In this document: positions 3,955-23,970 of the stretch, piece after piece
Position numbering within the stretch: the stretch's first letter is position 1
How the letters are laid out: the number at the start of each line of letters is the position of its first letter
DNA from: a virus
Length of the DNA stretch: 25,408 nucleotides
Strand: one strand, 5' to 3'
Virus record (IMG/VR): IMGVR_UViG_3300035670_001157
Location: 1 to 25,408 of that record
Made by a program: the position numbers and the translations under genes
The notes under the pieces: model-generated
Told to the model about the DNA's origin: nothing
Seen by the model: the letters and a program-made list of their open reading frames with translations, nothing else
The model's database searches: none

Positions 3955-4160
3955 GGGAGTTCTGCATCCCTGCAGTGCTTCACCCGGTCGTTACTGATGA
4001 GCTGATCAAAAAGCTCAAAGGCGTCTTCCCTGACGCACCCGGTAGATCCATGTCGCACCGGGACATTGATCACTGGATTGGCCAGCAGGAGGTCATTGGT
4101 TACCTCAAAAAACTGCTTGAAGAGCAGCAGTCTGAGCCGCTCAACCTGGAGGACCTCTGA
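3933..4160 (+). CDS. Small hypothetical protein following the exonuclease
   Basis: 75 residues starting 22 bases inside the exonuclease gene. It reads CIPAVLHPVVTDELIKKLKGVFPD, then SMSHRDIDHWIGQQEVIGYLKKLLEEQQ, ending acidic (LNLEDL). Small proteins with a VVT-x-E-L-x-x-x-L...FPD segment occur next to gp6-type exonucleases in cyanopodoviruses as I remember them, without an assigned function. The GGAGG near 4148-4152, inside its last codons, is the ribosome-binding site of the next gene, and the two genes share TGATG. A shorter start downstream is possible, as no strong ribosome-binding site marks 3933. Confidence 0.6.
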   Translation: MESAGSLREFCIPAVLHPVVTDELIKKLKGVFPDAPGRSMSHRDIDHWIGQQEVIGYLKKLLEEQQSEPLNLEDL

Positions 4161-4591
4161 TGTGCTTTGGAGGCGGCGGCAGCCCAGCGACGATCGTCAT
4201 GCCGGACACCCGTGCATACGACCGGCAGGCTGATCTTCAAATGCAGGCGATGCGCGAGACCCAGAACATGGGCGTCGCACTGAAGCAGATGGAGCTCAAC
4301 CGCGCTCTGTCCAGCCAGCAAGATGTGCTGACGCAGCTACGAGATTTCAAGATAGAACAGGCTGACAGGGAGCAATTCAAGGCCGAGGAGACAAGTGCCA
4401 ACGCTGCGCGGATCAACGCGATCCTCGGCGCGCCACCGCCCGAGCCATCTGCAAAGGCCCCCGTGGTCGGCAGCGATCGGGAAGGTCTTGTAAAGGCCAA
4501 GGGCAAAAAGCGATTGCGAATTGACCGGGTAGAGCGGGCGGCTGCCACCACGCAAGCCAGCGGCGCTGGACTCAACATCACCACTTCGTAG
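4160..4591 (+). CDS. gp7.3-like virion/tail protein, copy A
   Basis: 143 residues starting MCFGGGGSP. The middle (about 20-90) is a polar, Gln/Met-rich helix likely to form a coiled coil. The end is basic, KAKGKKRLRIDRVER, then Ala/Thr-rich, finishing SGAGLNITTS. T7 gp7.3 ends, as I recall it, in a basic stretch followed by SSGGGINI. The position between exonuclease and portal and this ending support a gp7.3 relationship. In T7, gp7.3 is a minor tail-associated protein needed for adsorption and ejected at infection. It is the first of three consecutive genes with the same termini and carries four extra residues after the NI motif. Confidence 0.6.
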   Translation: MCFGGGGSPATIVMPDTRAYDRQADLQMQAMRETQNMGVALKQMELNRALSSQQDVLTQLRDFKIEQADREQFKAEETSANAARINAILGAPPPEPSAKAPVVGSDREGLVKAKGKKRLRIDRVERAAATTQASGAGLNITTS

Positions 4592-4593
4592 CC

Positions 4594-5088
4594 ATGTGCT
4601 TCTTCTCTCAGCCATCTGCGCCGCAGATCATTTACCAGGGCCCCAGCCAAGCTGACATGGACGCCAGCAACCAGGCGCTCGAGCAGTACCGGCAGCAATC
4701 ACTGGCACAGCAGGAGCAGTTCGCCGCTGCCCTGCAACAACAGATTGACGATGCCAATGCGCAAGCCCAGCGGCAACGTGAATCGTTAGAAGCTGCACGC
4801 CTTGAGGCCGAGTCGGGGCTGACATCGCAAAAGCGGCAGGCCGAAGAAGACCTGCTGTCACAGCGTCAGAAAGCTGAGCTGGACATGGCTGCCCAAAAAG
4901 CAGGTGCCGCTTCTGAGATGGCTGCTCAACAAAGTGCTTCGTATGGGGTGTCGGTCAGCAATGTCACGCCAGAAAATGCGATGACGACAGAAGCCCCGAA
5001 GCCAAAGGATAAAAATAAAAGTACTCTTAAGATTACTCCTGGAGCCACGGCGGCAAGCCAAGGCACGGGCCTCAACATAGGAGTTTGA
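4594..5088 (+). CDS. gp7.3-like virion/tail protein, copy B
   Basis: 164 residues starting MCFFSQPSAPQIIYQGPS. Residues ~20-110 form a long heptad-like helix rich in Gln, Ala and Glu (QQSLAQQEQFAAALQQQ and so on). The end reads STLKITPGATAASQGTGLNIGV, matching the L-[RK]-I ... G-x-G-[LV]-N-I ending of copies A and C. It begins two bases after the stop of copy A, without an obvious ribosome-binding site. The last codons (AAC ATA GGA GTT) contain TAGGAG, which doubles as the ribosome-binding site of copy C. The local AT-rich patch around 5008-5040 stands out from the surrounding GC-rich sequence. Confidence 0.6.
   Translation: MCFFSQPSAPQIIYQGPSQADMDASNQALEQYRQQSLAQQEQFAAALQQQIDDANAQAQRQRESLEAARLEAESGLTSQKRQAEEDLLSQRQKAELDMAAQKAGAASEMAAQQSASYGVSVSNVTPENAMTTEAPKPKDKNKSTLKITPGATAASQGTGLNIGV
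5078..5083 (+). promoter_or_regulatory. Ribosome-binding site inside the NIG codons of copy B
   Basis: TAGGAG lies 7 bases before the ATG at 5091. It is formed by the Ile-Gly codons (ATA GGA) of the conserved GLNIG ending. It decides between the ATG at 5091 and a TTG at 5085. Confidence 0.65.
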
Positions 5089-5090
5089 AT

Positions 5091-5780
5091 ATGTGCTCCG
5101 CTCAAAGCGCGCCACCGCTAACTATTCAGCAAACACCAACGGCTGCTTTGCAATCGCAGCTCGATTCTAATCTTTTTTTGCGTGTCTCACCGGGCAACGT
5201 TATTGCGCAAATGCCGTCAACGCCGGCCGGTGCAGCGGGCTACAGGGCTGGAATGGCTGCGCGCGAGAGAGCCATTAACCAAAGACAGCAAATCGTCGAG
5301 GAGCTCGACCGTCGGGATGCCTTGCAGAAAGAGCAAGAACGAATTGCGCAGGAGCGTCAGCAGATTCTCGACCAACAGATGAAGGATCGGCAAAGGCTGA
5401 CAGAAGAAATGCTTACCCAGCAGCAAAAAGCATCTGCCGATGCCGAGGAATCGCAGCGGCAAAGTATCGCCCAGCTTGCGCAGGCAAGGGCTGCTCAGCA
5501 GCAGGAAATACTGCGGATGCAAACAGGCCAAGCTGCTGAGATAAAAGCACAGCGGCAGTCTCAAGAAGCCGAAATTGCCAAGCAGCAACTTGCTTCTGAT
5601 GCTGCTTCTTCTTCCCTCAGAGCGCTCGCAGCTCGTAGACCCATGACCTCGGCGCCAACGGCGACACAAAGCAAGCGCAAGGGCAGGAGGTCCGGCAGTC
5701 GAACTGGCAAACCCGCTAATGATCTGCGCATTGGCTCGTCAAACGTTGCCACTGGCGCAGGCGTCAACATAGGAGGTTGA
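5091..5780 (+). CDS. gp7.3-like virion/tail protein, copy C
   Basis: 229 residues from the ATG at 5091, starting MCSAQSAPPLTIQQTP. This start is preferred to the TTG at 5085 because it has TAGGAG at the right distance and gives the MC start seen in copies A and B. Residues ~60-175 form a very long Gln/Glu/Arg-rich coiled coil. The end carries a basic patch (SKRKGRRSGSRTGK), then NDLRIGSSNVATGAGVNIGG, the same L-R-I ... GxG-[LV]-N-I module. It is the longest of the three copies. Its last codons form AGGAGG, the portal gene's ribosome-binding site. Expected location: the virion, probably tail or core-associated. Confidence 0.6.
   Translation: MCSAQSAPPLTIQQTPTAALQSQLDSNLFLRVSPGNVIAQMPSTPAGAAGYRAGMAARERAINQRQQIVEELDRRDALQKEQERIAQERQQILDQQMKDRQRLTEEMLTQQQKASADAEESQRQSIAQLAQARAAQQQEILRMQTGQAAEIKAQRQSQEAEIAKQQLASDAASSSLRALAARRPMTSAPTATQSKRKGRRSGSRTGKPANDLRIGSSNVATGAGVNIGG
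5771..5776 (+). promoter_or_regulatory. Ribosome-binding site of the portal gene inside the NIGG codons of copy C
   Basis: A perfect AGGAGG, made from the Ile-Gly-Gly codons of the preceding gene, sits 5 bases before the portal ATG at 5782. Confidence 0.7.
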
Positions 5781-5781
5781 G

Positions 5782-7428
5782 ATGAGCTGCTCAAAACGCT
5801 ACAGGGCACTGGAGTCTGACAGAAATTACTACCTGGAGAGGGCTCGCACCAGTGCCAGGCTGACCCTGCCGTACCTGATCCCGCTCAGCGACGAGCCTTA
5901 CGCGCATGACACTCAGATATTCCCCTTGCCCTGGAACGGCATCGGGGCAAGAGGAGTGCACAACCTCGCCAGTCGGCTGCTGCTGGCCCTGCTGCCGCCG
6001 ACCGAGACGTTCTTCCGCTTCACGATCGACGAGATCGAGATGGTTAAAAGCGAGCAGCAGCTTGCTGCCGCTGGCACCAGTCCCGAGGAGATCGGCAAAT
6101 CAAAAAGCGAGCTTGACTTGGCCCTGGCGCGGCTTGAGCGCGCTGTGCTGCGCAGCATCGAAACCTCCAACGATCGGGTGGCGGTGCACGAGATGCTGCT
6201 GCACCTAGTGATCGCCGGGAACGTGCTGATGTATGTCTCCGATGATGGCCTCAAGTGCTATCACCTCAACCGCTACGTCTGCCGTCGTGACTTAATGGGC
6301 AATCCCATTGAGGCCATTGTTTGCGAGCAGCTTTCGATTGAGTCATTGCCGGCCAAAGCGCGGCAGCTGCTCGAGGAAGACGACGGCGACGTCGAAGGCA
6401 TTGTTGACGATGACGATCACATGCCTGAGTACGAACGTGTTGTCAGGCTCTACACCCACATCGAGTGGGAGGGCAACAAGGTCAAGTGGTACCAGGAGAT
6501 CAAGGACCAGGAGATCCCCGGCACCCGTGGCACCGCAAGCATCAACGAGTCGCCCTGGCTGCCGCTGCGGATGTATCGCATCGACGGCCAGGCGTACAGC
6601 CCGGGCTATGTCGAGGCGGCCTGCATTGCTGACCTGCAAACGGCTGAGGCCCTGAGCCAGGCGATCGCCGAGGGCTCACTGGTGTCGGCCCAGGTCAAGC
6701 ACCTGGTTAAGCCCAGCGGCATCGCCAACCCCAAAAAGCTGGCCGAGGCTCCCAACGGCGCCTACCTGCCGGGCAACCCTGACGACGTGTTCACCATCCA
6801 GGTGAACAAGGCGGCCGACTTGAATGTCGCTGCGCAGGGCCTGGCTCGGATCGAGGCCCGGCTGGCGCAGGCGTTCATGCTTGCAGACGTGCGCGACTCA
6901 GAGCGCACCACGGCTGAGGAGGTCAGGCTGCAGGCGCTGCAGATCGAGAACAGCCTGGGGAGCATCTACGCCATCCTCACCACCGAGTTCCAGCAGCCCT
7001 ACGTGGCGCGGAAGCTGGCGATCTTGACCCGCAAGGGCAAGCTGCCCAAGCTGCCGCCGGAACTGGTAAAGCCGGTCGTGAGCGTGGGCCTGGCTGCGGT
7101 TGGCCGCGGCAACGACCTGGAGAAGACAGCCCGGTTCATGACGATCCTGCAGCAGGCGCTGGGGCCTGAGGGGATCGCCACCTATGTGATGCCGGCCGAG
7201 CTGATTCGCCGGCTGGCCGGAGCCATGGGCATGGACATCATCGGCCTGGTCAAGACCGAGGAGCAACTGGCCCAGGAGCAACAGCAGCAACAGCAGATGG
7301 CGATGGTTCAGCAGGCGATGCAGGCCGGCATGGCCGACCCGCAAAAGCTGGCCAACGCCGCTGCCACGACGCAGGACATGGCCCAGCCCATGCCTCCGCA
7401 ACCACCCACTGAGGAGCCCATTGCATGA
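5782..7428 (+). CDS. Portal (head-tail connector), T7 gp8-like
   Basis: 548 residues (T7 gp8 is 536). The start, RYRALESDRNYYLERARTSARLTLPYLIP, and the following NGIGARGVHNLASRLLLALLPPTETFFRF are the standard gp8 opening. Other familiar segments are HLVIAGNVLMYV, PWLPLRMYRIDGQAYSPGYVE, a region beginning RIEARLAQAFML, then ERTTAEEVRLQALQIENSLG, and PYVARKLAILTRKGKLP. The C-terminus is a Gln/Met/Pro-rich tail (about 490-548). Twelve copies are expected to form the ring at one capsid vertex, through which DNA enters and leaves and onto which the tail tubes attach. The stop overlaps the scaffold start by ATGA. Confidence 0.96.
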   Translation: MSCSKRYRALESDRNYYLERARTSARLTLPYLIPLSDEPYAHDTQIFPLPWNGIGARGVHNLASRLLLALLPPTETFFRFTIDEIEMVKSEQQLAAAGTSPEEIGKSKSELDLALARLERAVLRSIETSNDRVAVHEMLLHLVIAGNVLMYVSDDGLKCYHLNRYVCRRDLMGNPIEAIVCEQLSIESLPAKARQLLEEDDGDVEGIVDDDDHMPEYERVVRLYTHIEWEGNKVKWYQEIKDQEIPGTRGTASINESPWLPLRMYRIDGQAYSPGYVEAACIADLQTAEALSQAIAEGSLVSAQVKHLVKPSGIANPKKLAEAPNGAYLPGNPDDVFTIQVNKAADLNVAAQGLARIEARLAQAFMLADVRDSERTTAEEVRLQALQIENSLGSIYAILTTEFQQPYVARKLAILTRKGKLPKLPPELVKPVVSVGLAAVGRGNDLEKTARFMTILQQALGPEGIATYVMPAELIRRLAGAMGMDIIGLVKTEEQLAQEQQQQQQMAMVQQAMQAGMADPQKLANAAATTQDMAQPMPPQPPTEEPIA

Positions 7429-9525: not shown

Positions 9526-10185
9526 ATGGGCCTTGCGAATCAGGCCTTGACCCCAGGCCGCACAACGCTGCTGGAAGCGGTCAATATCTGCCTGCAGAAC
9601 ATTGGGGAGCAACCGGTCAACAGCCTTGAGAACCAGCAGATCGTCGAAGCGACGATGGCGGAGCGCACCATCCTTGAGTTCCACAAGGAAGGGCAAACCC
9701 GTGGCTGGAGCTGGAACACCGAGCAGAGCTACGAGTTTGTCAAGGACAGCGGCACCAACCAGATCACGATCCCGGCAAACGTGGTCTCGTTTGCCACGGA
9801 CGCATACCGCTGGGCGGGCCGCTTTCAGCTGCGCGGGCAACGGGTCTACGACAAGGAGAAGCGCACCTACGTGCTGGGCGCCGAGATCACGAGCCTGGAG
9901 GCCGACGTGGTGTGGCTGCTGCCCTGGGACGAATGCCCAGAAGCGTTTAACCGGTGGATCGTCATCCGCTCGGCTCGAGTGTTCAGCGATCGAGTCCTGA
10001 GCAGCGACTCGATCTTTAAGTACACGTCACTGGACGAGCAAAACGCGCTTGTCGAACTGCAGCGGGTTGAGCTCGAGCAAGCCCAGGCAAACAGCCTCAC
10101 CGGCGGGCCAGGCCTAAGGCCGTTCCCTACCTACTCGCCAGGGCTTGGCCTGCTGGGAAGGAACGAGGGGTACCTGCGTGGCTAA
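9526..10185 (+). CDS. Tail tubular protein A, T7 gp11-like
   Basis: 219 residues (T7 gp11 is 196). The start region TTLLEAVNICLQNIGEQPVNSLE, then AERTILEFHKEGQTRGWSWNTEQSY and ITIPANVVSFATDAYR are hallmark gp11 sequence. After these come RVYDKEKRTYVLG, DVVWLLPWDECPEAFNRWIVIRSARVF and a helical C-terminal tail. Twelve copies form the adaptor ring between portal and nozzle. The C-terminal ~25 residues (GGPGLRPFPTYSPGLGLLG) are longer and more Gly/Pro-rich than T7's. The ribosome-binding site is weak (GAGAAG just upstream). The gene lies 43 bases past the terminator; no separate promoter is evident. Confidence 0.93.
   Translation: MGLANQALTPGRTTLLEAVNICLQNIGEQPVNSLENQQIVEATMAERTILEFHKEGQTRGWSWNTEQSYEFVKDSGTNQITIPANVVSFATDAYRWAGRFQLRGQRVYDKEKRTYVLGAEITSLEADVVWLLPWDECPEAFNRWIVIRSARVFSDRVLSSDSIFKYTSLDEQNALVELQRVELEQAQANSLTGGPGLRPFPTYSPGLGLLGRNEGYLRG
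10165..10170 (+). promoter_or_regulatory. Ribosome-binding site setting a GTG start for tail tube B
   Basis: GAGGGG lies 7 bases before the GTG at 10178. It favours that codon over the in-frame TTG at 10145. Confidence 0.6.
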
Positions 10186-12682
10186 CCTCGTCAGCTACAC
10201 CATCCCGAATCTGGTTCAAGGGATCAGCCAGCAGCCAGACGCGCAGCGGGAACCAAGCCAGGGGGAGATACAGATCAACGGCATGAGCTCTCTGGCCGAG
10301 GGCCTGCGCAAGCGCGAATCGACGCACTGTGTCGCAAAGGTCAGCACCAGCGCGTTTGGCGATGTTTACTTTCACCAGATTCTGCGCGACCTGGGCGAGA
10401 AATACCTGGTCGTAATTGGCAAAACAGCCATCAAGGTATTTGATCTTGATGGTAATGAAAAGACGGTTTCGGCGCCATACGGATATGGCTATCTGTCGTC
10501 TGTGGTCAGCGCAAAGAGCGACATCAGGGCTGCCACTATTGCTGACTATACCTTTATCAGCAACACCAAGGCTATCCCGGCGATGGATCCGGCACTGGCG
10601 CCTGCTGTTGCAAGACCTTCAACGCATGAAGCGCTTGTGTGGGTCAAGGCAGCAAATTATGGCCAGACCTACAAGGTGAACTTAAATGGAACGCAGGCCA
10701 CGATCACCACAGCGGTCGCGGCAATTATTGTGAGTGGATCAACGACAACAGAGAATCGCATCAGTACAGAGGATATTGCCGAGAACATCAGAACATCGCT
10801 GTCCGGCGTATCTGGTGTGACGATCGCCCGAAGCGGGTCGGTGTTGCATTTTAAGAGCAGCAGCCCGATTACGATTGCGGCCTCTGACGCTAGGGCCAAC
10901 GCAGACATTACTGCTATTACTAGCTCAGTTCAGGCGTTTACAGAGCTGCCTACGATCGGGCCAGAAGGTTATCAAGTAGAAATCATTGGCGACCCTGGCA
11001 ACAACTTTGACAATTACTACGTGAAGTTTGTGCCTAGGGCTGGGGCGGGGACATTTGGCGAAGGCAGCTGGCAGGAAACCCCCAGCCCTGGCGTTGAGTA
11101 CAAGCTCAATGCCTCGACGATGCCGCATCTGCTTGTGCGGCTGCCAAGCGGCGGCTTTTATTTTGGGCCTGCCAATGGCAGCACGCAGAGCGGAGTTGCC
11201 ATCCCCAGCTGGGGCGAGCGAAGCGCCGGCGACTACGACACCGCTCCAGATCCGAGCTTCATTGGCTATCCGATTCAGGATGTCTTTATTTACAAGAATC
11301 GCCTTGGCTTCCTGGCCGACGAGAACGTCATCCTGAGCCGCACCAGGGACTTCTTTGAGTTCTTCCCGGAAACAGTTACCACGGTTCTGGATACTGATCC
11401 GATTGACCTGACGGCAAGCAATAACAGGGTCTCAATCCTGAGATATGCAATTCCGTACCAGGATGAGCTGATCATCTTCTCGGACCAGATTCAGTTCCGC
11501 TTCAACGCTGCCGAGACAATCCTGACGCCAGCCAGCGCCGTGATCACGGTGCTGACGCAGTACGAGATCGACCCCGACTGCCGGCCCATCCCGGTGCAAG
11601 GCACAATCATCTTTTGCCAGGCCAACGGGCAGTGGAGTCAGTTCCGCGAGTTCAGCGTCCGCGGGGCGGGGACCGCGCTTGTCGCTGATGCGTCTGATCT
11701 GACCGGATACGCCAGTAGCTACGTGCCGGCCGATGTGTTCAAGCTCACGGCAAACGACACCGGCAACAGTTGGTTTGCCGTGTCCAGCAAGAGCGGCTTT
11801 GCCGATCGGATCTACGTCTACAAATACTTTTATCGGAACACAGGCAGTGGCGCCGAACGTGTGCAAAGCAGTTGGAGCTATTGGCAACTAAGCGGAGCCG
11901 ACAAGATCTTGCAGATTCTTTGCGTGCAGGAGGTGATGTATCTGCTTGTCGAGTACGGCAGCGAGGTGTGGCTCGAGAAGATGCCGGTCGCTGACCGCCT
12001 GAGCGACGTTGCCCCCAACCCTTACCCGTTGCTGCTGGACCGTCGGGTTTCGACGACCACCGAGACGCCGGCGGCAATTCGAGTAGCAGCTGGCAGCTAC
12101 AACGCCACCACCAAGCAGACCACCTGGACTTTGCCCTACACAATCAAGGCCCCGACTCAGGTCTGGTCGGGCTATGGCATGACGACAAACGGTGGGGTGC
12201 TGCTGGGCTCTTCGAGCAGCGGAAACACAATCGTGGCCAACGGCGACTGGTCGGCGGCGCCGGTCTTTTTCGGCGAGGTCTACGACTTTGCTTACCGCTT
12301 CACGCGCTTCAAGCTCTACAAGGAGGTTGGCGGCGGCAAGGTGGCGGCCAACGTCGAGCGCACCCAAGTGCGCCACGCCAAGCTCCGGTACCACGAGACG
12401 AGCTACTTCGAGGTCCGTGTCATGGCCGAGCGCCGCGACATGGCCGTCTACAAGTTCGACGGCACGGTTCTCGGCAGCCGCAACTCAAGCCTGGGAACGC
12501 AGATGCCGAACGGGTTTGACCCAGAGGCCAACCGCTACTTCGAGGGCGTGTTCCAGGTGCCGATCGCCAGCAAGGGGGAGAACTGCATCATCGAGCTGCA
12601 TAACGACACGGTTCACCCCTGCAAGTTCAGCACTGTCGAGTGGGTCGGCTTAATCACCAGCCAAGCGAGGAGCCTGCAATGA
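10178..12682 (+). CDS. Tail tubular protein B (nozzle), T7 gp12-like
   Basis: 834 residues from a GTG start at 10178 (T7 gp12 is 794). I chose this start because it has a ribosome-binding site and because the resulting opening, VSYTIPNLVQGISQQPDAQR...QINGMSSLAEGLRKR, aligns with the gp12 opening. Later segments such as RIYVYKYFYRNTGS and SSWSYWQLSG, and a region around YGMTTNGGVLLGSSSS, are typical of the nozzle beta-propeller. It makes up the distal tail tube, through which DNA passes. It overlaps tail tube A by 8 bases and gp13 by ATGA. The first half is visibly less GC-rich than the second half. Confidence 0.93.
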   Translation: MANLVSYTIPNLVQGISQQPDAQREPSQGEIQINGMSSLAEGLRKRESTHCVAKVSTSAFGDVYFHQILRDLGEKYLVVIGKTAIKVFDLDGNEKTVSAPYGYGYLSSVVSAKSDIRAATIADYTFISNTKAIPAMDPALAPAVARPSTHEALVWVKAANYGQTYKVNLNGTQATITTAVAAIIVSGSTTTENRISTEDIAENIRTSLSGVSGVTIARSGSVLHFKSSSPITIAASDARANADITAITSSVQAFTELPTIGPEGYQVEIIGDPGNNFDNYYVKFVPRAGAGTFGEGSWQETPSPGVEYKLNASTMPHLLVRLPSGGFYFGPANGSTQSGVAIPSWGERSAGDYDTAPDPSFIGYPIQDVFIYKNRLGFLADENVILSRTRDFFEFFPETVTTVLDTDPIDLTASNNRVSILRYAIPYQDELIIFSDQIQFRFNAAETILTPASAVITVLTQYEIDPDCRPIPVQGTIIFCQANGQWSQFREFSVRGAGTALVADASDLTGYASSYVPADVFKLTANDTGNSWFAVSSKSGFADRIYVYKYFYRNTGSGAERVQSSWSYWQLSGADKILQILCVQEVMYLLVEYGSEVWLEKMPVADRLSDVAPNPYPLLLDRRVSTTTETPAAIRVAAGSYNATTKQTTWTLPYTIKAPTQVWSGYGMTTNGGVLLGSSSSGNTIVANGDWSAAPVFFGEVYDFAYRFTRFKLYKEVGGGKVAANVERTQVRHAKLRYHETSYFEVRVMAERRDMAVYKFDGTVLGSRNSSLGTQMPNGFDPEANRYFEGVFQVPIASKGENCIIELHNDTVHPCKFSTVEWVGLITSQARSLQ
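12667..12672 (+). promoter_or_regulatory. Ribosome-binding site setting the gp13-like start
   Basis: GAGGAG lies 6 bases before the ATG at 12679. The same frame is open upstream to 12640, so this site fixes the start. Confidence 0.65.
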
Positions 12683-13125
12683 GGTGGGCAGAGCCGACAT
12701 CTGCACGAGTGCACCACATTGCCCGCTACCTGCGGTACCAGGATCAGCTCGAAGTGCTCTACAGCGATGGCCTGACTGGGGAAGAAGCGGTCTTGGCCAG
12801 CTGGAAAAACAGCGGAATCTGTCGTTGCATAGATGCAGATGACGGGACTCCCGTGGGGATCTGTGGGCTGAATGGAGCAACCATCTGGCTGCTGGGAACC
12901 GACGGCCTGTTGGCGACCCCATCGCGTCGACAGCAGTTCATTCGCGGCGGCCGACAGTGGATCGAGGAGTTGATGGCCAGCGGCCACGGCTGCCTGGAGA
13001 ACTGGGCCCTGGCGTCCAACACAAAAACACTGCGCTGGCTGAGGCACCTGGGTTTCACGATCGACACCCCTGAGCCTCGAGGCCGGAGCGCGCAGCTGTT
13101 CTGTCACTTCTGGAGGGCTGCCTGA
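12679..13125 (+). CDS. gp13-like internal virion/assembly protein with acetyltransferase-like fold
   Basis: 148 residues from the ATG at 12679 (T7 gp13 is 138). The sequence has the gp13/GNAT-like order: a variable N-terminal part, GICGLNGATIWLLGTDGLLATPSRRQQFIRGGRQWIEELM, then LENWALASNTKTLRWLRHLGFTID. The segment WALASNTKTLRWLRHLGF corresponds to the C-terminal GNAT motif of residue-N-x-x-x-x-[RK]-[FW]-L-x-x-x-G-F. In T7, gp13 is required for infectious virion assembly but is not a stable virion component. Position between gp12 and gp14 agrees. Whether it retains any acyl-CoA binding is not evident. Confidence 0.8.
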   Translation: MRWAEPTSARVHHIARYLRYQDQLEVLYSDGLTGEEAVLASWKNSGICRCIDADDGTPVGICGLNGATIWLLGTDGLLATPSRRQQFIRGGRQWIEELMASGHGCLENWALASNTKTLRWLRHLGFTIDTPEPRGRSAQLFCHFWRAA

Positions 13126-13931
13126 TGGATCCGATTGTCGGTGGCTTGATTCTTGGCGGCCTGCAAGCCGGCATGGGCGTGCTCGGCGGCATGGCCGAGA
13201 GCGCTGCAGCTCAGCAGGACTATGTGAACCAGCGGGCGTTTCAGAACGCCAACACCGAGTTCGCGCAGTGGCAGGCGGGCTTCAACCAGCGCGTCACCAA
13301 TGCCAACGCCGAATACAACTACTGGCAGGAGACGGTCAATTACAACCAGAACCTGGCCTACAGCCGCAGTCTGCAGAACTACGAAACCCTGAAGGCGATC
13401 GCTCAGGTTGACGTGGTGCGTCAAACGCGAGGCGCCGCGCTGAGCAACTTCGTGCGCAGCAGCGAAGCAATCAATCAGGCGGCGGCCGAGGCGGCGATGA
13501 GCGAGGCGGTTGCGTTTCAGCAGTACCAGGTGGCGGCTCTCAAGGCCCGCAGTCGGGCCATGGCTGGCGGCCAGGAGGGCGCATCGGTTGACCGGTTGAT
13601 CAACGACTACGCCCGCCAGGTGGGCGACTACCAGACGATTCAGGACATCAACGAGGGACTGCGGACGCGCCAATACACCCGCGAGCAGGCCGGCGCCGTG
13701 GCGCAATACCTGAGCCAATACAACTCGCAGAGCTTCTACGAGTCGCAGCCGTACATGGAGCCGATGGCTCCGTTCATGCCGCTGCCGGCGCTGCTTGAGG
13801 CTCCGGCCCCGACCATGACCGGCTCTGGTCCGAGCGGCGCTGCGGCGGGCCTGCGGATCATGGGCGGCCTAGTGGGCGGGGTGAGCGCAGGCTTCAACAC
13901 CTTCGCCCAACTCAAGAGCGTGGCTGGCTAG
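13125..13931 (+). CDS. Internal virion protein B, T7 gp14-like
   Basis: 268 residues (T7 gp14 is 196). The N-terminus is hydrophobic and Gly-rich (IVGGLILGGLQAGMGVLGGMAESAA), consistent with the membrane-inserting segment of gp14. It is followed by a long Gln/Asn/Ala-rich helical region (about 30-205) and a Pro-rich stretch (PMAPFMPLPALLEAPAP). A second Gly-rich hydrophobic segment lies near the C-terminus (AAAGLRIMGGLVGGVSAGF). In T7, gp14 is ejected first and forms a pore in the outer membrane. GGAGGG at 13112-13117 is the ribosome-binding site, and TGATG couples it to gp13. Confidence 0.82.
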   Translation: MDPIVGGLILGGLQAGMGVLGGMAESAAAQQDYVNQRAFQNANTEFAQWQAGFNQRVTNANAEYNYWQETVNYNQNLAYSRSLQNYETLKAIAQVDVVRQTRGAALSNFVRSSEAINQAAAEAAMSEAVAFQQYQVAALKARSRAMAGGQEGASVDRLINDYARQVGDYQTIQDINEGLRTRQYTREQAGAVAQYLSQYNSQSFYESQPYMEPMAPFMPLPALLEAPAPTMTGSGPSGAAAGLRIMGGLVGGVSAGFNTFAQLKSVAG

Positions 13932-13933
13932 TA

Positions 13934-16729
13934 ATGGCAGACAACCTTCCGCTGAATCAGATCCGGCCAGCCGCCAGGCCGGTTGACAGCTTCATCAGGC
14001 CGGCGACCCCGAATGTGGCGGCCCCAGCTGCGCCGCAGATGCTGCCCAACCCACAGGGCATCCGAACCATTGCGCAAGGCAATGGCGGAAACGTGCAAGG
14101 CGTCAATCAGTTCGCCGAGCTGGCCCTGGCCCTGGCGCCGCTGGCGCGGGGGCTGGTCGATTTGGCTGGCACCGGGATGCAGATGTACGCCAAGGGTGAA
14201 TACGAGAAGGGCCGGGCCGAGGCCGCCCGAGCGCAGGCGCTGGCTAACCAGCAGATGCTGCAGTCGCAGGCGGACTACGCCAGCGAGAACCGCAAGCTGG
14301 CCCAGGTCGATCCGATCGGGGCCCTGATGATGGATCGGGTGAATCCGTATCGGTCAGCCGGACGGCAGAACACCCTCAACCGGATCGCTGGGCAAGAGAT
14401 TCCCTCGGCGGTGCTGCGCAAGTACAGAAACACTCCTGGCGCCTACGAGCTGGCGCCGGGCTCGCCTGAGCTGAAGAAGCTCGAAGCCCAGGCGGTCGAA
14501 GAAGTTACCCAGAAGTACCGGGTCAACCCGGGCTCGCCGGGCTTCGTGGAGCACGTGTTGCCAGCGATCGGCCAGGCCGGGGAGAGGCTCTACAGCCAGC
14601 ACTGGGACGATCACGTCAAGCACCAGAAAGAGACCGCTTGGCGCAACACTGCGGTCGAAGCATCGGCGATTTACCAACAGGCCCGGCAGACGGGGGCTGT
14701 CGAGTGGATGGAGTACGACCCCACCACCGGCCGGCCTATCCGCCGCATAGCCCAGGTGGGCGCCGATCGCGCAGGGTGGGAGCGCGGCTTGCAGGTGCTG
14801 ATTGGCCAGGCGGCTGATCGCTTGGCGAACGAGACGGGGATTCCTGGAGAGGCCAGCACGTTCAAACGCCAGATGTTTGAGCGACTGGCCGAGATGGCCG
14901 GCGTCAGCGGTAACACCGAGCTCAGGCGGATCCTGCTGAACGTCGAGGCCGGCCCCGTTGGCAAAGACGGTCGCCGCGCCCTGGCGGGCGAGCTCTACGG
15001 CATCGAGATGTTCGAGAGCAACAACAAGATCAGTCAGACGCTGTGGCAGCAAAGCCAGCGCCAGACCGAGCAAGGCGTTCAGCAGTTCGAGTCTGAGCTG
15101 GCCAACATCACCTATGGGATGCCGGACGGCCCGCAGCGGGGGCAGGCAATCAACGACTTGGTGCAGAAATACAGCGCCATGGGCGTGCCAGTGGGCAAGC
15201 TGATGGAGGCCACTTCGGGCATGAGCAAGACGCTCGATGACGTGGCCGGGCGCAGTTACGACCCATCGGGCACTGACGCCCTGCTGCAGGACATGCAGTC
15301 CCGGGTGGGTTCGGGCTGGAACGCCAAAGCTGCCGACCGTGAGTTCGAAAGCAGCCTGGCCAACGTGCCGCCTCAGGAGCGTGCTGCCTACCGCAAGCAG
15401 TACGCCAGCATCCGCCAGGGCAAGGAGAAGGAGAAGGACGATGTGCCGGGCCACCTGGTCAACCCGCTGATCGAAGCCAAGATCAAGGGCCGGCTGCGTG
15501 AGTTTTACGCAACCGATGAGACGGAGGCCGCCCTGCGGCCAGGGGTGAACATCACCGACTTGCTGGCCTATGGCGACGCCGACATCGCTCGCTCAAGCCA
15601 GTTGCAGCTGCAGGCCTACAGAGGGCACGTCTACAACCGCATCCAAGAGGCTGAGGCCAAGAAAGGGGCCAAGCTCTCGGCTGCTGAAATCACCAGCGTC
15701 ACCAGCCGGGCCCTGGAGGAGTACGGCAAAAACGACAGAGAGGCGCTGCTGCAGCTGTTCCCTGGCTCCAACAAGGCTCCGAACGTCCCATCGGTCGGCA
15801 GCCGTGCTCGGCCGCCTGCCCCTGGGGCTGGCGATGGCGTTGCGCCGGGCCGGCAGTCCTTTGCCAAGCCGGTCTACCCCTCGGGCCAGCTCGACAACAT
15901 CCCCGATCGCGGTGCGCGGCTGCAGAGCGGCGAGCCGGTGCTGGCCCTGCCCAGCGTGCAAGAGGAGATGGGCCGGGTGCTCAATGGCCAACCACCCAGC
16001 GCTGCGGCTGCCAGGGCTGCCAGGGACGCCGGCTACGGCAGCAACGTCGGCCGCTGGCTGCTGCGTGAAGCAGGGAACTACCCCAGCTTCACCATCCCCA
16101 ATGACGCCCGGCAACAGTTGCTGCGCAGCAGCCGCGACGCGCAGGGCGTTGCCGACCAGTTCCGCACGGCGATGGCGCCAGCCCGGCCGGTGCAGTCGGT
16201 CGCCGGGTGGTTCTTCGATGCGCTGACTGGCACGGCGCCAGCGATGGCAGCACCGAACCTGGCACAGATGAGCAGGGCCCGGGCAGGCGCGCCAACGCTG
16301 GCCACTCGTTCCGGCTCGTACCAGTCGGGTCCGCGCCCAAGCTGGGACAACGTTGTGGCCATGGCCCGAGCAAAAGGCTCCAAGTTTCCTGAGCTTGTTG
16401 CTGCTCAGTGGGCATTGGAGTCCGACTGGGGCCGATCACCAAGTGGCCGCAACAACTTTTTTGGGCAGAAAGGTCCAGGAACAAGGAAAGCCACCTGGGA
16501 GGTCGTAAATGGCCGCAGGGTTAACACCACGGCCAGCTTCATGGACTTTGCGAGCCCGGCCGACAGCGTTGGGTATCTGGTGAACAAGTGGTATCAGGGC
16601 AGAGGCGGCGCCAACAACGCCAAGACGGTTGAGGAGGCGGCGCGAATCCTGAAGCAGCAGGGATACGCGACTGACCCCGAATACGTGAACAAGTTGCTGC
16701 GCATCATCCGCAGCAACAGGAGGCCTTAA
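13934..16729 (+). CDS. gp15-like internal virion protein with C-terminal GH73/FlgJ-type glucosaminidase domain
   Basis: 931 residues (T7 gp15 is 747). The first ~620 residues are helical and charged, as in gp15: a hydrophobic helix VNQFAELALALAPLARGLVDLAG near residue 60, then long Ala/Gln/Glu-rich helices. A low-complexity Pro/Ala/Gly linker follows (about 620-790). Residues ~795-931 form a peptidoglycan-hydrolase domain: FPELVAAQWALESDWGRSPSG with the presumed catalytic E829, NNFFGQKG (840-847), an aromatic-rich middle, FMDFASPADSVGYLVN and YATDPEYVNKLLRII at the end. This is the GH73/FlgJ layout. In T7 the wall-cutting activity is at the gp16 N-terminus. It probably cuts host peptidoglycan during DNA ejection. 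No strong ribosome-binding site precedes the ATG. Confidence 0.82.
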   Translation: MADNLPLNQIRPAARPVDSFIRPATPNVAAPAAPQMLPNPQGIRTIAQGNGGNVQGVNQFAELALALAPLARGLVDLAGTGMQMYAKGEYEKGRAEAARAQALANQQMLQSQADYASENRKLAQVDPIGALMMDRVNPYRSAGRQNTLNRIAGQEIPSAVLRKYRNTPGAYELAPGSPELKKLEAQAVEEVTQKYRVNPGSPGFVEHVLPAIGQAGERLYSQHWDDHVKHQKETAWRNTAVEASAIYQQARQTGAVEWMEYDPTTGRPIRRIAQVGADRAGWERGLQVLIGQAADRLANETGIPGEASTFKRQMFERLAEMAGVSGNTELRRILLNVEAGPVGKDGRRALAGELYGIEMFESNNKISQTLWQQSQRQTEQGVQQFESELANITYGMPDGPQRGQAINDLVQKYSAMGVPVGKLMEATSGMSKTLDDVAGRSYDPSGTDALLQDMQSRVGSGWNAKAADREFESSLANVPPQERAAYRKQYASIRQGKEKEKDDVPGHLVNPLIEAKIKGRLREFYATDETEAALRPGVNITDLLAYGDADIARSSQLQLQAYRGHVYNRIQEAEAKKGAKLSAAEITSVTSRALEEYGKNDREALLQLFPGSNKAPNVPSVGSRARPPAPGAGDGVAPGRQSFAKPVYPSGQLDNIPDRGARLQSGEPVLALPSVQEEMGRVLNGQPPSAAAARAARDAGYGSNVGRWLLREAGNYPSFTIPNDARQQLLRSSRDAQGVADQFRTAMAPARPVQSVAGWFFDALTGTAPAMAAPNLAQMSRARAGAPTLATRSGSYQSGPRPSWDNVVAMARAKGSKFPELVAAQWALESDWGRSPSGRNNFFGQKGPGTRKATWEVVNGRRVNTTASFMDFASPADSVGYLVNKWYQGRGGANNAKTVEEAARILKQQGYATDPEYVNKLLRIIRSNRRP

Positions 16730-16732
16730 CCC

Positions 16733-19700
16733 ATGCCACAAGAACTAAAGCAAGTGAATGGCCGCTGGGTGGTGACAGGCGCCCAGCAGAGCAGCGACCT
16801 GGCGCCCACGGTGAAGGCTGGGTTTAAGCCGGCAGCGCCCAAGCCGCAGGCAAAGCCCAAGCCCAAGGCGCCTGAACGGCCCTGGTGGTCGAAGTTGATG
16901 AACGACGCCACCTATGAGGTCAACCAACTGCGCGCTGGCAAGCTGCCTCATCTGCGGTTGCTTCAGGCCAGCCCGATTGGCGCGCTGAACACCCAGCTGA
17001 ACCTTGGCGTTGCAGGCGCTGGCGACAACCTGGCCCGCATGGCGTATTCGCTCGCGCAGCGCCATGTGCAGAAGAAGCCCAAGGCCGATCCCAGCAGCGG
17101 AAGAGTGGGCAACCTGCTGGATCAGCTGGTGGATCACCAGTACCGGCGGCTAGGCGCCAAGCCGCCCTCACAGATGAGCCAGGGCGAGCGCAATTTGGAT
17201 CAAATGCGTCGCTCGGTGGTCGGCAACTTGCTGCTGGCACCCGTCACCCCGGGCTTCGGCGTGGCAGGTGCAACAACAACCGCCGGGCGCGTGCTGCGCG
17301 GCGGGGCTGCCTTTGCTGTCAACGAGGTGATGAGCACGATCGTTGACGACAGCACGGGCGGGAACATCGTCAACATGATCAGCCCGAGGTTGCCGTTCGC
17401 GGTCAACGTCGGTGTTGACGACATGGTTGACGCCTATGTGAAGTCGATCGCCCCCAACGCCGCGCTGAGCCTTGGCGTTGGAACGGCGGCTGGCGGCGCG
17501 TTTTCGCTGGCTCAGCGCCTTCCCAATATCCGCCGCAACACCCGTGCTCACCGCGCTGTGCAGCAAGAGGTCCAGCAGCGGGCCAAGCAGGAGTCGATGG
17601 GCATCCTGCAGAAGGACGAAGCAGACGGCCTCGACTTCACCCCGCAGGCCAAGCAACCGGCCCAGCCCGCTTCTGCTCCAGAGCCGACTTTCCAGGAGGC
17701 CAATGCGGCCATGGAAGAGCGGCTGGGGATGAACACCGCTGAGGCCGCTCCAGCGCCCGCTGCTGCGGCTGCTGAGCCCGCTCCGATCCCGACAATCGAG
17801 AACGCCACCACTGAAGACTTTGGCAAGGCCCAGGCGGCTGAGCTGCCCGATGCCGATCCAACTCTTGACCCCTGGACCTACGACCCCGACCTGCCGGAGA
17901 GCACTGCCCTGGGCAAGGCGCTTGAGGAGCTGAGCGACACCGAGATTCAGACCGTGCTCAGCGCACCCGATTTGGACGTGGTGGAGCGCGTCAACCAGGT
18001 CATCGAGGCCCGGGCCGGCATTGAGCCGCGTCTGCCTGTGTCAGCGCAGATGGTGATGGCGCCGACCGATCGACTGGCCGATGACTACCTCGAGACCGTC
18101 GCCCGCAAGCTGAGCGCCCGCGAGGACTACGAGCTGCGGCCGCTTTTTGACCCGGAGCTGAACCCGGAGCTGTGGCAGCGGGCCCAGGCGCTCACTGGCG
18201 TGGATGACGCAGCCCAGCTGAGCAAGGCCGACATGCTCGACTCGCTGAACGCCATGGCTGCTGACGGCCAGGCGCCGATCGTGAATCGAATGATGGGCGG
18301 CCAGATGCTGCCCACCGCCGAGGTGCAAGCAGCACCGCAGGTGTTCCAGTACAAGGGCGGCGTCAACGAGGCCGGCGAGCAGATCGGCAACTCGCTGGAG
18401 GGTGTCGAGCGCTGGGATCCCAATGCCGAGGGGATCATCCAGGTGTGGCGTGACGCCAACGGCGAGATCGGCGAGCCAGGCATGGCCTATGTGGTGAACG
18501 GCCACAACCGGCTGGCTGCGGCCAAGCGCATGGGCATCCCGTCCATGCGAGTGGAATACCTGGACGCTCCGACGGCGGCCGAAGCCCGGCTGCAGGGGGC
18601 AATCTCCAACGTGAGCGACGGCAAGGGGACCGTGTTCGACGCGGCCAAGCTGGCCCGCGAATACGGCATCACCGACCCAGCTCAGCTCAAGGCAATGGGC
18701 AAGCCTGGCGCCAGCGGCTTCTGGAAGGAAGGCATTGCCATGGGCCGGCTGCCTGAGGACGTGTTCACGGCGGCCGTGAACGAGCAGATCCCGCTGCGCC
18801 GTGCCGTGATCATCGGCGAGTCGGGCGCCAACGAGGAGACGATGCGCTCGGCCTATCGCTACCTGGTGCAGCAGGGGCCCGAGAACGTGAGGGAAGGCAC
18901 GCTGCGGGAGATGCTGGCGATGGCCACGTCTTCCCCAGCAGCATCCTCGAGCGGAGGCCGCCAGAAGGTGCTTTTTGAGGGCACCGAATGGGACCAGAGC
19001 TTCAACGAAGGGATGCTGGCAAAGGCCGACCTGGCTGCGGCCGTGCGGCAGATGCTGAGCAAAGAGAAGAAGCTCTTTGGCACGGTGGGCCGCCAGGCCG
19101 GACAGATCGAGCGGGTCGGCCAGGTAGATGCCGCTGCCGCCAAGGACATCAGCGGCGAGGCCAGCCGTGCGCTGACGATCTTTGACGAGCTCAAGTACAT
19201 GACCGGCCCCGTCGGCGATTTGCTTAACGAGGGCACCGAGCGAATCCTGGCCGGCGAATCAGCGGCCCAGGTGGCCAAGGGCATCAAGAACCGTCTGGCC
19301 GCCTCGATCGCCGAGGCCATGGGCAAAGAGGCGGCCCCGGCTGTGGACGTGGTGCAGGAGGACATGTTCGCTGCCGCCACCCGGGCTGCTGAAGAGCCCG
19401 CCGCGCCGATCGAGCTGACGCCCGACGAGCGTCTGGCAGCTGAGGCCCAGCTGCTGCAGCAGGCCGCGGCGAACGGCAAGATTCGCCCGCCCTCGGCGCC
19501 GATCCCTGATCTGCCTGAGCCCGCTCAGGTGCGACTGGACGCGCTCGACGAGGCAAAGCTCCCTCAAGCCACTGCCGACGAAATCCGGCTGGCGGTGGAG
19601 CACAAGCAGAGCGACGCCGCCCTGGCCTTTGAGGAGCAGCAGGCCTTGCGGGATGCAACCGAATACGAAGCCCTTACCTTTGATCAGAAAAGGGACGCAG

Positions 19701-20476
19701 GCCTGGTTGATGGCATCGAGGAAGTCTACGCCGCTGAGATCAAAGAGTTGCGGCGATCACTTGCAGAAGACATTGGAGTTGACTCTCCCCAGAACCTTCA
19801 GTCAAAGGCAGTGCGCCTGGCCGACTTGGAGGCAAGGTTTGGCTTGGCGGCTGACCTCGATGAGGCAATCACCCCTGAGGTGATGCCAAGGGAGAGCAAG
19901 ACGCCGATCGCCGATGCGTTCGGCGCCACGCTGCGGGCTATGGCGGAGTCCGATGCGCGGCTGTTCCGGGAAATCGACCAGCTGACGCAAACCACGCGGC
20001 GGGCAATTGACGAGCTGGGTGGCGGCCCCGCCCGGCCCGCCCGCCCCGAGCCACTGCGGCTGACCGCTTCTGCTGAGCAACCTGAGTTCACGCTGCCCAA
20101 GGAGCTCAGCAAGGCCTCGCCGCGCTACGGCCGCGCCACGATCCGTTTCGAGTCCGACCTGGACCGCACCGCCTACGTGCTGGCCAACGATGCGGTCAAG
20201 CCCAGCAAGTCAGCGGCCAAGTTCCGCGAGGCGCTGGAATTTGCCGGCATGAACGTGGCCGAGGTGACCGCCCACGGCAAAAAGGTCAAGGCAGCCCTCA
20301 AGCAGGCAGCGCGCGACACCACCCCAGGCAACCCAATCCAACTGCCGTCTCAACCCTTTGGCGAAACGGCTAAGCCGCCCACCAGGGCTGGCACTGACCG
20401 CGTACGGCAGCAGATTGACACCAACAACCAAACCATCGACGACATCCGCCGCAAGGCACAACAGGAGGGCTGCTGA
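16733..20476 (+). CDS. Large internal virion/ejection protein with a ParB-like domain (gp16 position, first part)
   Basis: 1247 residues. The N-terminus is Lys/Pro/Ala-rich (KPKPKAPERPWW). Hydrophobic Gly/Ala segments follow at about 160-260 (NLLLAPVTPGFGVAGATTTAG; AALSLGVGTAAGGAFSLAQ), then Ala/Pro/Glu linkers. Residues ~537-680 resemble a ParB/Srx-type domain: VFQYKGGVNEAGEQIG, GVERWDPNAEGIIQVW, YVVNGHNRLAAAKRMGIP (586-603), AAEARLQGAISNVSDGKGT, FDAAKLAREYGI. This set is known from phage-borne ParB-like and polyvalent proteins. The remainder is helical and acidic, ending in a short coiled coil (VRQQIDTNNQTIDDIRRKAQQ). No transglycosylase motif is evident. AGGAGG at 16718-16723 is the ribosome-binding site. 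It is most likely ejected with the DNA; the exact role is unknown. Confidence 0.7.
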   Translation: MPQELKQVNGRWVVTGAQQSSDLAPTVKAGFKPAAPKPQAKPKPKAPERPWWSKLMNDATYEVNQLRAGKLPHLRLLQASPIGALNTQLNLGVAGAGDNLARMAYSLAQRHVQKKPKADPSSGRVGNLLDQLVDHQYRRLGAKPPSQMSQGERNLDQMRRSVVGNLLLAPVTPGFGVAGATTTAGRVLRGGAAFAVNEVMSTIVDDSTGGNIVNMISPRLPFAVNVGVDDMVDAYVKSIAPNAALSLGVGTAAGGAFSLAQRLPNIRRNTRAHRAVQQEVQQRAKQESMGILQKDEADGLDFTPQAKQPAQPASAPEPTFQEANAAMEERLGMNTAEAAPAPAAAAAEPAPIPTIENATTEDFGKAQAAELPDADPTLDPWTYDPDLPESTALGKALEELSDTEIQTVLSAPDLDVVERVNQVIEARAGIEPRLPVSAQMVMAPTDRLADDYLETVARKLSAREDYELRPLFDPELNPELWQRAQALTGVDDAAQLSKADMLDSLNAMAADGQAPIVNRMMGGQMLPTAEVQAAPQVFQYKGGVNEAGEQIGNSLEGVERWDPNAEGIIQVWRDANGEIGEPGMAYVVNGHNRLAAAKRMGIPSMRVEYLDAPTAAEARLQGAISNVSDGKGTVFDAAKLAREYGITDPAQLKAMGKPGASGFWKEGIAMGRLPEDVFTAAVNEQIPLRRAVIIGESGANEETMRSAYRYLVQQGPENVREGTLREMLAMATSSPAASSSGGRQKVLFEGTEWDQSFNEGMLAKADLAAAVRQMLSKEKKLFGTVGRQAGQIERVGQVDAAAAKDISGEASRALTIFDELKYMTGPVGDLLNEGTERILAGESAAQVAKGIKNRLAASIAEAMGKEAAPAVDVVQEDMFAAATRAAEEPAAPIELTPDERLAAEAQLLQQAAANGKIRPPSAPIPDLPEPAQVRLDALDEAKLPQATADEIRLAVEHKQSDAALAFEEQQALRDATEYEALTFDQKRDAGLVDGIEEVYAAEIKELRRSLAEDIGVDSPQNLQSKAVRLADLEARFGLAADLDEAITPEVMPRESKTPIADAFGATLRAMAESDARLFREIDQLTQTTRRAIDELGGGPARPARPEPLRLTASAEQPEFTLPKELSKASPRYGRATIRFESDLDRTAYVLANDAVKPSKSAAKFREALEFAGMNVAEVTAHGKKVKAALKQAARDTTPGNPIQLPSQPFGETAKPPTRAGTDRVRQQIDTNNQTIDDIRRKAQQEGC

Positions 20477-23400: not shown

Positions 23401-23970
23401 CTCGAGGGCGTGGCCATGAGCGACGACTTGCAGGCCGAGTACAACGACATCCATGGGTCGCTCAAGGGCGACCCCAACCTGCCGCCCACGGCCCGGTTGG
23501 GGCTGGCCGGCAAGAAGGTGCAGGCGTTCTTCCCGTTCCCGGTGGAGACCGTGACGGACATGGGCATCCGCATCAAGAAGAACGGCGGCGCGTCGCTGCC
23601 GCTTTTGCAGATCCTCGACAAGGTGACGGCCGGCAAAACCAAGAAGGAGGCCTTTTACACCCTGTTCACCAGCCCCTGGTATCAGGCCGTTGAGGATGAC
23701 CCGACCACCTCGGCCAATCCGGCTGGCGGCCTGCCCCCCGCGCTGCGGCGCACCAAGACGGCCCAGGTGCTGATCAAGGGCATCACCGACTACTACGACC
23801 TGCTGACCCAGGACGAACTGGAGCGGCGCGCGGCCGCTGGTACCAGCGATGCGGCAAAGCAGTGGAGCGAGGCCAAAAACGAATTGGCGACTCAAACCTT
23901 CAAGCAATCGCAGACGCAGTTGATGCGTCTTGGCGAACGCTTGAGGGATGCGCTAAGTCCGGCAGAATAA
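20479..23970 (+). CDS. Internal virion protein D, T7 gp16-like (second part)
   Basis: 1163 residues. It opens with a coiled coil (FQRIQELREENRKLQEMADA, about residues 10-38), has a long helical middle, and a hydrophobic segment VMSGALLGAFGMLDAAGLV near residues 730-748. The C-terminal third carries sequence of the gp16 channel-forming kind: LPVLNTLFLWKDIQTTAEAS, FMGSGQVPFSGAIRNVERL, then INFSKGMPGFPSIWPSGKINDVVYGEL and a helical tail. In T7, gp16 (1318 residues) is a single protein whose C-terminal part helps form the channel across the inner membrane and pulls in the first DNA. Here the N-terminal enzymatic part is absent. AGGAGG at 20463-20468 lies 10 bases before the ATG. Confidence 0.75.
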   Translation: MSGNNCDDAFQRIQELREENRKLQEMADAMERQMKAAGVYSYAPKGDSVILPGRSGKPVELDRADIERGYKQLAGTMSSQEVEDMVARGFDVGAKPNGADGRFQNYDRLLREVDISTVDDYARLAEALGITHERIAPDDFAFLTQTYDKERLTELVSNYYRDLGVSDADLLVKAAVKTAPVINAVENKVWLRFWADRSKRVYLDTLEQIRTYMQAIPGSPVPAELKQDAFKQYKLALVMERHNNLASRRHAQALRSQQEQILGLEQFRLDLGDEQEVAEAIGLRGKDLDKDEHFGRVLQAIDDNGVKGEEQLRLLIDTTEIDGLDPKSKLDKDWFNTHMRMANALLKDSQLGNLNTQIKMNAGSNAVMAFFGPVQQTMANGVKLTPAGTQLTRAPLLEASKISGEAFNYAWTTMKTTWRRDLDRVFKEGVSHYSGNLDTYGKSLLTNNQDLLDMQAIVDQPYKQGANWAATLAHPHNLALFTNKLQAAARILAFTKPYGAKGATRVEAALSALGVDMGQGSRGLRIKDIDTYVPWKPFLRTMAGVDEMFGKYQYLFKLKADLEVKARMEGAQLGLLSEQDRTAWVQARIDEAIYQATPTEANIKAFRKQNNLKGSDFTDDEIAALIAENNLAGAPSLGTPESAEALNYSAGMRFQDAPTGGTAAAVDRATMSLRQNWAVDRYLMPYWRSPFMGMLFDHRLTTFGAIDTIKMLGAKDPSPELVARVKAGWVMSGALLGAFGMLDAAGLVRGGNETDPAKRNTIAGMPLGGLPVLNTLFLWKDIQTTAEASLANEYDANELGLAWMKVMTNQVMRQTGIQQVQLLMDAMLDGSQAAWEKVRQAIGFMGSGQVPFSGAIRNVERLVGSDRASFFRDAPDTAAQNYLLEKDNPFAQMEQSLRNWAYDTQPLIAGLTGAKRKETDHLGSPIGHIKGINFSKGMPGFPSIWPSGKINDVVYGELDTQDMLDPPGPLLTRKLEGVAMSDDLQAEYNDIHGSLKGDPNLPPTARLGLAGKKVQAFFPFPVETVTDMGIRIKKNGGASLPLLQILDKVTAGKTKKEAFYTLFTSPWYQAVEDDPTTSANPAGGLPPALRRTKTAQVLIKGITDYYDLLTQDELERRAAAGTSDAAKQWSEAKNELATQTFKQSQTQLMRLGERLRDALSPAE

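Follow-up and report, generated by a model that had tools for sequence, protein, structure and literature searches.

Three consecutive genes lying directly 5' of the portal gene of a T7-like virus, here named A, B and C, are best read from their sequence profiles as true paralogues, and comparison with other phages suggests that the T7 proteins gp6.7 and gp7.3 are the halves of one old protein family. The window, meaning the whole stretch of DNA analyzed, is a virus record of 25,408 bases (IMG/VR IMGVR_UViG_3300035670_001157) with a T7-like gene order, and its hosts are probably freshwater cyanobacteria. Genes A to C with their modules, and the portal, nozzle and gp14-family genes, are on the plus strand. 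The three genes are separated by gaps of 2 bp, and the portal ATG follows at 5782. Gene A (4160..4591) encodes 143 amino acids running from MCFGGGG through MPDTRAYDR, GAPPPE and LRIDR to GAGLNITTS, and is the most conserved copy. Gene B (4594..5088; 164 aa) runs from MCFFSQPSAPQIIYQGPS through LKITPG to GTGLNIGV, and its N-terminus is the closest of the three to that of T7 gp6.7. Gene C (5091..5780; 229 aa) is the fastest-evolving copy and runs from MCSAQS through a long Gln-rich helix and LRIGSS to GAGVNIGG; an in-frame TTG at 5085 makes two extra residues possible. Reading of the ORFs confirms the claim of a first, sequence-only reading that three consecutive proteins of these lengths start with MC[FS] (MCF in A and B, MCS in C) and end with L-[RK]-I, a spacer and G-x-G-[LV]-N-I (LRIDR..GAGLNITTS, LKITP..GTGLNIGV and LRIGS..GAGVNIGG, respectively).

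The conserved ends can be delimited as short modules. Alignment of A orthologues places an N-terminal Met-Cys module in the first 12 codons of A (4160..4195), and hhalign comparison of N-termini and of full profiles places the corresponding module of B at 4594..4629, where it matches residues 1-12 of T7-type gp6.7. C-terminal modules were defined by alignment and profile comparison in A (LRIDR...GAGLNI, residues 119-140, 4514..4579), B (LKI...GTGLNI, residues 145-162, 5026..5079) and C (LRIGSS...GAGVNI, residues 212-227, 5724..5771). Direct reading of the sequence and a tally across loci also identify a GGAG at 5080..5083, within the codons of the terminal GV of B, as the likely Shine-Dalgarno sequence of gene C, and a GGAGG at 5772..5776, within those of the terminal GG of C, as that of the portal gene. 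A GGAG, AGGA or GAGG word is present in the last 15 bases of 49 of 64 C genes, 36 of 60 B genes (unclassified middle copies included) and 21 of 64 A genes. Since the likely ribosome-binding site of the following gene falls on the final G[GV] of B and C, these residues may be kept for translation of that gene and need not serve the protein itself.

Two kinds of comparison support the modules and the common origin of the three genes. Of 2,692 ORFs upstream of portal genes, 224 carry the C-terminal pattern, compared with 2 of 3,317 ORFs located elsewhere. Because the pattern was devised with the proteins already in view, the evidence lies in the contrast and not in the absolute rate, and this contrast argues that the ends are not due to chance. 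One of the two ORFs located elsewhere (L230 276-479) is a genuine family member, which had been the best “decoy” in the HMM test described below. Profile-profile comparison, with 30 column-shuffled profiles per pair as controls, gave scores of 70.6 for A-B (control maximum 18.1), 65.0 for B-C (17.7) and 62.9 for A-C (14.2), and it is these values, far above the shuffled controls, that lead to the reading of A, B and C as paralogues. The corresponding hhalign probabilities are 97.5%, 97.0% and 96.8%, values that for modules this short are uncalibrated for database-scale searching. The A-B alignment spans the whole length, and B-C and A-C align through the C-terminal part. The earlier proposal of a gene duplication that preserved the ends, with helical middles that differ, is supported. 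Genes A and B are under purifying selection (pN/pS 0.19-0.47), and C is under looser constraint (0.53-0.67).

The triplet is widespread among relatives of the virus. The closest phage described so far is Synechococcus phage S-SRP02, whose DNA is 73.5% identical across 68% of the region; its p036, p037 and an unannotated ORF at 24140-24709 of MW822601 correspond, in this order, to A, B and C as direct orthologues. The first two are annotated as hypothetical, and the third (locus L001 9066-9635) is an intact ORF missed in the deposited annotation; no function assigned to the three counterparts was found in the paper describing S-SRP02 (PMC8790148). The triplet is also found in MedDCM-OCT-S38-C3 and about 40 viral contigs. 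Among portal-anchored IMG/VR loci, it occurs in most clade members down to about 58-60% portal identity, and some relatives have two copies only. No virion proteomics or structure was found in the literature for this clade, and term searches of published work on P-SCSP1u, phiM1, P-SSP7 purification and ejection proteins yielded nothing on proteins of the A/B/C type.

The middles of the proteins are predicted to be long helices. An AlphaFold2 model of A contains one helix at residues 18-89 (4211..4426), with block pLDDT of 87-94 over residues 21-70 and of 65-76 thereafter. The model of C contains one long helix at residues 45-181 (5223..5633), with pLDDT mostly 90-98, and a short low-confidence helix at residues 18-28. 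At 1.5 Å per residue, the two long helices would measure about 108 Å and 205 Å if straight. In both models the ends, in which the modules sit, are low-confidence or disordered. Hydrophobic helical periodicity is significant in the middle of B (14/500 shuffles, period 3.65) and not significant in A and C (231/500 and 295/500 shuffles). The “coiled-coil middles” of the sequence-only reading are accordingly unsupported for A and C, and the heptad interpretation of these two was dropped after the shuffle test; on these models, and with no significant heptads, A and C would be called Gln-rich helical rods rather than coiled coils.

Lengths and sequences of the rods differ greatly in how well they are kept. 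Among clade relatives A ranges over 98-156 aa (the shortest A copies begin within the gene, for the most part where a contig ends), B over 128-188 aa (30 distinct sequences, with 22 further middle copies left unclassified by the script) and C over 143-589 aa, such that A and B are nearly constant and C varies strongly. Mean identity of the middles among orthologues is 0.52 for A, 0.41 for B and 0.23 for C. The 589 aa copy C of L037 (2229-3998) owes its length to a tandem FAKNLETISKAS-type repeat, does not have a Met-Cys start and still ends in LRIGSTGTSPGTGLNISV. If all three proteins are present in the virion, their unequal rods could act as a molecular ruler or as graded fillers that set or fill tail or core lengths. 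This idea is very improbable and was rejected on the length variation of copy C, which measures 147 aa in L003, 229 aa in the window and 250 aa in L012 although the portals of the two relatives are 90-93% identical to that of the window; rod length therefore does not track particle geometry, and the relatives with two copies also speak against it. The “length-defining” role proposed earlier is for the same reason unlikely, as portals remain alike over the whole span of C lengths, 143 to 589 aa. A different use of the variable rod is conceivable, in which the ends are addressing tags for recruitment into the particle and the helix works after ejection, e.g. by lining or extending a tunnel through the cyanobacterial envelope. 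Fixed ends around a rod that varies from copy to copy and extends to 589 aa in L037 would fit a host-facing or load-bearing segment; however, the middles are low-complexity Gln/Ala helices with no significant heptads in A and C, and this explanation is considered rather improbable.

The relationship to T7 was investigated with profiles of gp7.3 and gp6.7, each built from a 42-sequence set from T7-type loci. T7 gp7.3 (PF11653 VirionAssem_T7; PHROG 1320) resembles A-C in that its gene lies upstream of the portal gene, and its C-terminal module (L-S-V-x-R ... G-G-G-I-N-I, ending KKSLSVARSSGGGINI) is aligned by profile to A, to B and more weakly to C. Unlike A-C, it is single-copy, has a strongly basic N-terminal part and lacks cysteine, both in T7 itself and in all T7-type sequences (0/42). 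Scores against the gp7.3 profile are 36.9 for A, 36.3 for B and 27.5 for C (shuffled maxima 17.2, 18.6 and 15.7), with hhalign probabilities of 84-86%, 84-89% and a weak 28-37%, respectively. The kinship of the termini with gp7.3 that had been anticipated from the sequence therefore holds at the profile level, with all three proteins above every column-shuffled control and C weakly so. The sequence-only reading had credited T7 with a single such protein, whereas T7 has two relatives. The second, gp6.7 (PF17570 T7-like_gp67; PHROG 1391), is short (88 aa in T7), starts with Met-Cys (MCFSPKIKTPK) as A-C do, with Cys2 as its sole cysteine, and keeps the L-K-V half of the C-terminal module (within GRKGLKVER) without the G-x-G-L-N-I end; its gene, too, lies ahead of the portal gene. 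Against the gp6.7 profile, B scores 26.8 over residues 1-12 (control 13.4), A scores a marginal 20.2 (17.9) and the full profile of C gives no real match; in hhalign comparison of the N-termini, B reaches 93%, A matches residues 1-3 only and C is weak.

A single C-terminal HMM built without T7-type members gives T7 gp7.3 a marginal 14.1 bits (E 0.02) and gp7.3 of Pseudomonas phage WRT 18.9 bits (E 6.5e-4), the best of 3,329 other ORFs reaching 7.3 bits. HMMs built from A only, B only or C only recover T7 gp7.3 poorly, and a wider profile is needed. Pfam and PHROGs scans of A, B and C from the window gave nothing significant, including the gp7.3 and gp6.7 models. The S-SRP02 copy of A matches PHROG 1320 at E 0.041, and PHROG 1391 is reached by only one of 34 copy-A relatives (E 0.0018). 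PDB sequence searches with the A and B profiles and with the Syn5, Lo5R7ANS and P-SCSP1l counterparts matched no phage structure. The two T7 motifs can also be recognized in Vibrio phage ICP3, in which gp34 (L464 4131-4382) starts MCIFKAPS and contains SLKVKL, a gp6.7-type motif, and gp36 (L464 4825-5115) ends in SLSVSRSSGSGINI, a gp7.3-type motif. The ICP3 equivalents of gp6.7 and gp7.3 were reported as not readily identifiable in a recent preprint (PMC13320782).

Proteins with both modules occur in other phages and, in profile comparison, bridge A, B and C to the two T7 proteins. Syn5 gp36, Lo5R7ANS_39, RHEph21 and the two copies p39 and p40 of Bordetella phage BB8 each carry both modules in one protein encoded before the portal; they differ from A-C in being present in one or two copies, mostly shorter, and in having a middle that is often Pro-rich and not helical. 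They are annotated only as hypothetical or “proline-rich”. The profile of these Syn5, rhizobial and Bordetella types scores 62.4 with A, 44.8 with B, 32.6 with C, 50.4 with gp7.3 and 30.4 with gp6.7 (controls at most 15.0), with hhalign probabilities of 97% for A, 95% for B, 96% for gp7.3 and 80% for gp6.7.

Copy number was surveyed at about 330 portal loci with enough upstream sequence. One protein with the Cys end only and one with the C-terminal end only are found at 49 of 56 T7-type loci, one two-ended protein at 48 of 58 Syn5-type loci, and three two-ended proteins at 41 of 53 loci of the clade to which the window belongs. Pelagiphage-type loci mostly have two Met-Cys proteins, whose C-termini are poorly recognized by the profile. 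The portal tree shows the triplet in both branches of the clade's deepest split, with the two-copy and T7-type split states nested. The split state is found in L065, L066, L067 and L069 (the nodes that enclose them have support of 0.999 and 0.997), where copy A ends right after LRIDL and a separate protein of 250-310 aa, lacking Met-Cys, carries the GTGLNI end. In L351, a deep T7 relative, the protein at the gp6.7 position still has a GLN-type end. The nested split state and this GLN-type end suggest that the two-ended form is ancestral and that it was split at least twice. The gene would have been triplicated early in the clade, after which C would have been free to change its rod, and A and B much less.

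The second residue is a further shared feature. Cys2 is the sole cysteine in each of the three window proteins, in all Met-Cys copies counted (50 A, 30 B and 43 C) and in 42 of 42 T7-type gp6.7 sequences, and both TGC and TGT are in use across lineages, which indicates that the amino acid itself is what is kept. The “universal second-residue Cys” of the earlier description stands for A and B, whose alignments (34 and 32 sequences) have invariant M1 and C2, and fails for C, in which C2 is lost in three of 31 aligned sequences; copies of C without Cys2 are found in L005, L009, L024, L037 and the L065/L066/L067/L069 group. Lipidation or disulphide formation at this sole, codon-independent cysteine could be the main function of the N-terminus, but this is quite unlikely. 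The position of Cys2 leaves no room for a signal peptide or lipobox before it, so a standard lipoprotein signal is excluded and the lipidation suggested earlier could not follow the ordinary route. Portal proteins, as possible disulphide partners, have no cysteine column common to all families, and some C copies do without Cys2.

T7, P-SSP7 and Syn5 each have exactly two annotated Met-Cys proteins per genome, one of gp6.7 type and one of gp14 type (gp14 being assigned by position in P-SSP7 and Syn5). The gp14-family internal protein of the window (13125..13931; Pfam T7_gp14, E 4e-7) has neither a Met-Cys start nor any cysteine, unlike T7 gp14 and the proteins at this position in P-SSP7 and Syn5. 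The ORF at 12640-13125 has a weak likeness to T7 gp13 (Pfam PF11090, E 0.001, below the cut-off), and the gene in its place is annotated as an acetyltransferase in S-SRP02 and as an internal virion protein in Syn5 and P-SSP7. The gp15-position protein (13934-16729) has a C-terminal glucosaminidase domain (Pfam PF01832, E 5e-20, residues 817-929), and its S-SRP02 counterpart is annotated as an amidase. In T7 the cell-wall enzyme is carried in gp16 instead. At the gp16 position are two very large adjacent ORFs (16733-20476 and 20479-23970; 1247 and 1163 aa), as if gp16 had been split, neither of which has a Pfam match. Elsewhere in the window, an NrdR-like zinc-ribbon protein is encoded at 1154-1735 (PF22811, E 1.5e-11), though no ribonucleotide reductase gene was noticed, and tandem 42/21-base repeats, which encode Ala/Thr/Asn/Ser-rich repeats, lie at 24571-24850 in a presumed tail-fibre gene (open ORF 23995-25407).

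The T7 virion provides a structural model for the role of these ends. According to Zheng et al. 2024 (PMC11784390), residues 2-15 of gp6.7 encircle the portal barrel as twelve loops, and residues 84-98 of gp7.3 were seen by cryo-EM as six loops at the adaptor-nozzle junction, each anchored to a pair of neighbouring gp12 nozzle subunits; K84 and K85 are in contact with the DNA end. Both proteins are described as ejected, and gp7.3 has been proposed as a scaffold for nozzle assembly (PMC11784390). Homologues of both have been detected by mass spectrometry in phiPsa17 virions (PMC4517105). The resolved T7 ranges coincide with the modules common to the window proteins. By analogy, A, B and C are probably internal virion proteins of the gp6.7/gp7.3 family, docking on portal and nozzle and leaving early at infection. 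In each, a stiff Gln/Ala-rich helix would connect two flexible modules, a short N-terminal one starting with Cys2 and a C-terminal one. The N-terminal module would dock on the dodecameric portal barrel, as gp6.7 residues 2-15 do, its presumed partner being the T7 gp8-type portal protein (5782..7428; PHROG 449, E 3e-147; Pfam Head-tail_con, E 7e-66). The C-terminal module would dock inside the tail channel, where adaptor and nozzle meet, in the gap between adjacent nozzle subunits, as gp7.3 residues 84-98 do, its presumed partner being the nozzle protein at the T7 gp12 (tail tubular protein B) position (10145..12682; from the ORF list and a position match with S-SRP02). The proteins would lie along the channel from portal to tail, where they would assist seating of the nozzle on the adaptor and retain the DNA end, and they would exit before the core proteins and the DNA at infection.

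From the T7 structures we infer that the cyanophage proteins use these sites too and that both ends of one chain could be engaged at once. In T7 the portal barrel has the Cys-end loop on its outside, whereas the C-end loop lies within the channel; a single chain on both sites must therefore cross the barrel rim, which counts against two-site docking. The C-terminal module might instead touch core or channel proteins rather than the nozzle. A, B and C all retain the Met-Cys end typical of gp6.7 and gp14 in T7 and of their P-SSP7 and Syn5 counterparts, and could have taken over the role of the window gp14, which lacks it; nevertheless, the C-terminal module aligns better to gp7.3 than any part does to gp6.7, and in gp7.3 it is seen bound to the nozzle (PMC11784390), making this contact unlikely. 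A broader proposal, offered tentatively, builds on docking at portal and nozzle: gp6.7 and gp7.3 might be complementary descendants of an ancient two-ended portal-nozzle linker. In the clade of the window both ends would have been retained and the gene triplicated, the T7-type split would have re-evolved in L065, L066, L067 and L069, and the chains of the triplet would form a mixed bundle through the portal-tail channel.

Few parts of the T7 particle are as poorly understood as gp6.7 and gp7.3, and the two are covered by separate family models. The two modules pick out the ICP3 candidates gp34 and gp36 at once. If the family view is true, many “hypothetical” genes before T7-like portals would become annotatable, and natural variants with one or two ends and one to three copies would allow the role of each end to be tested. 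The conserved second-residue cysteine, common also to T7 gp14, would become a clear experimental target.
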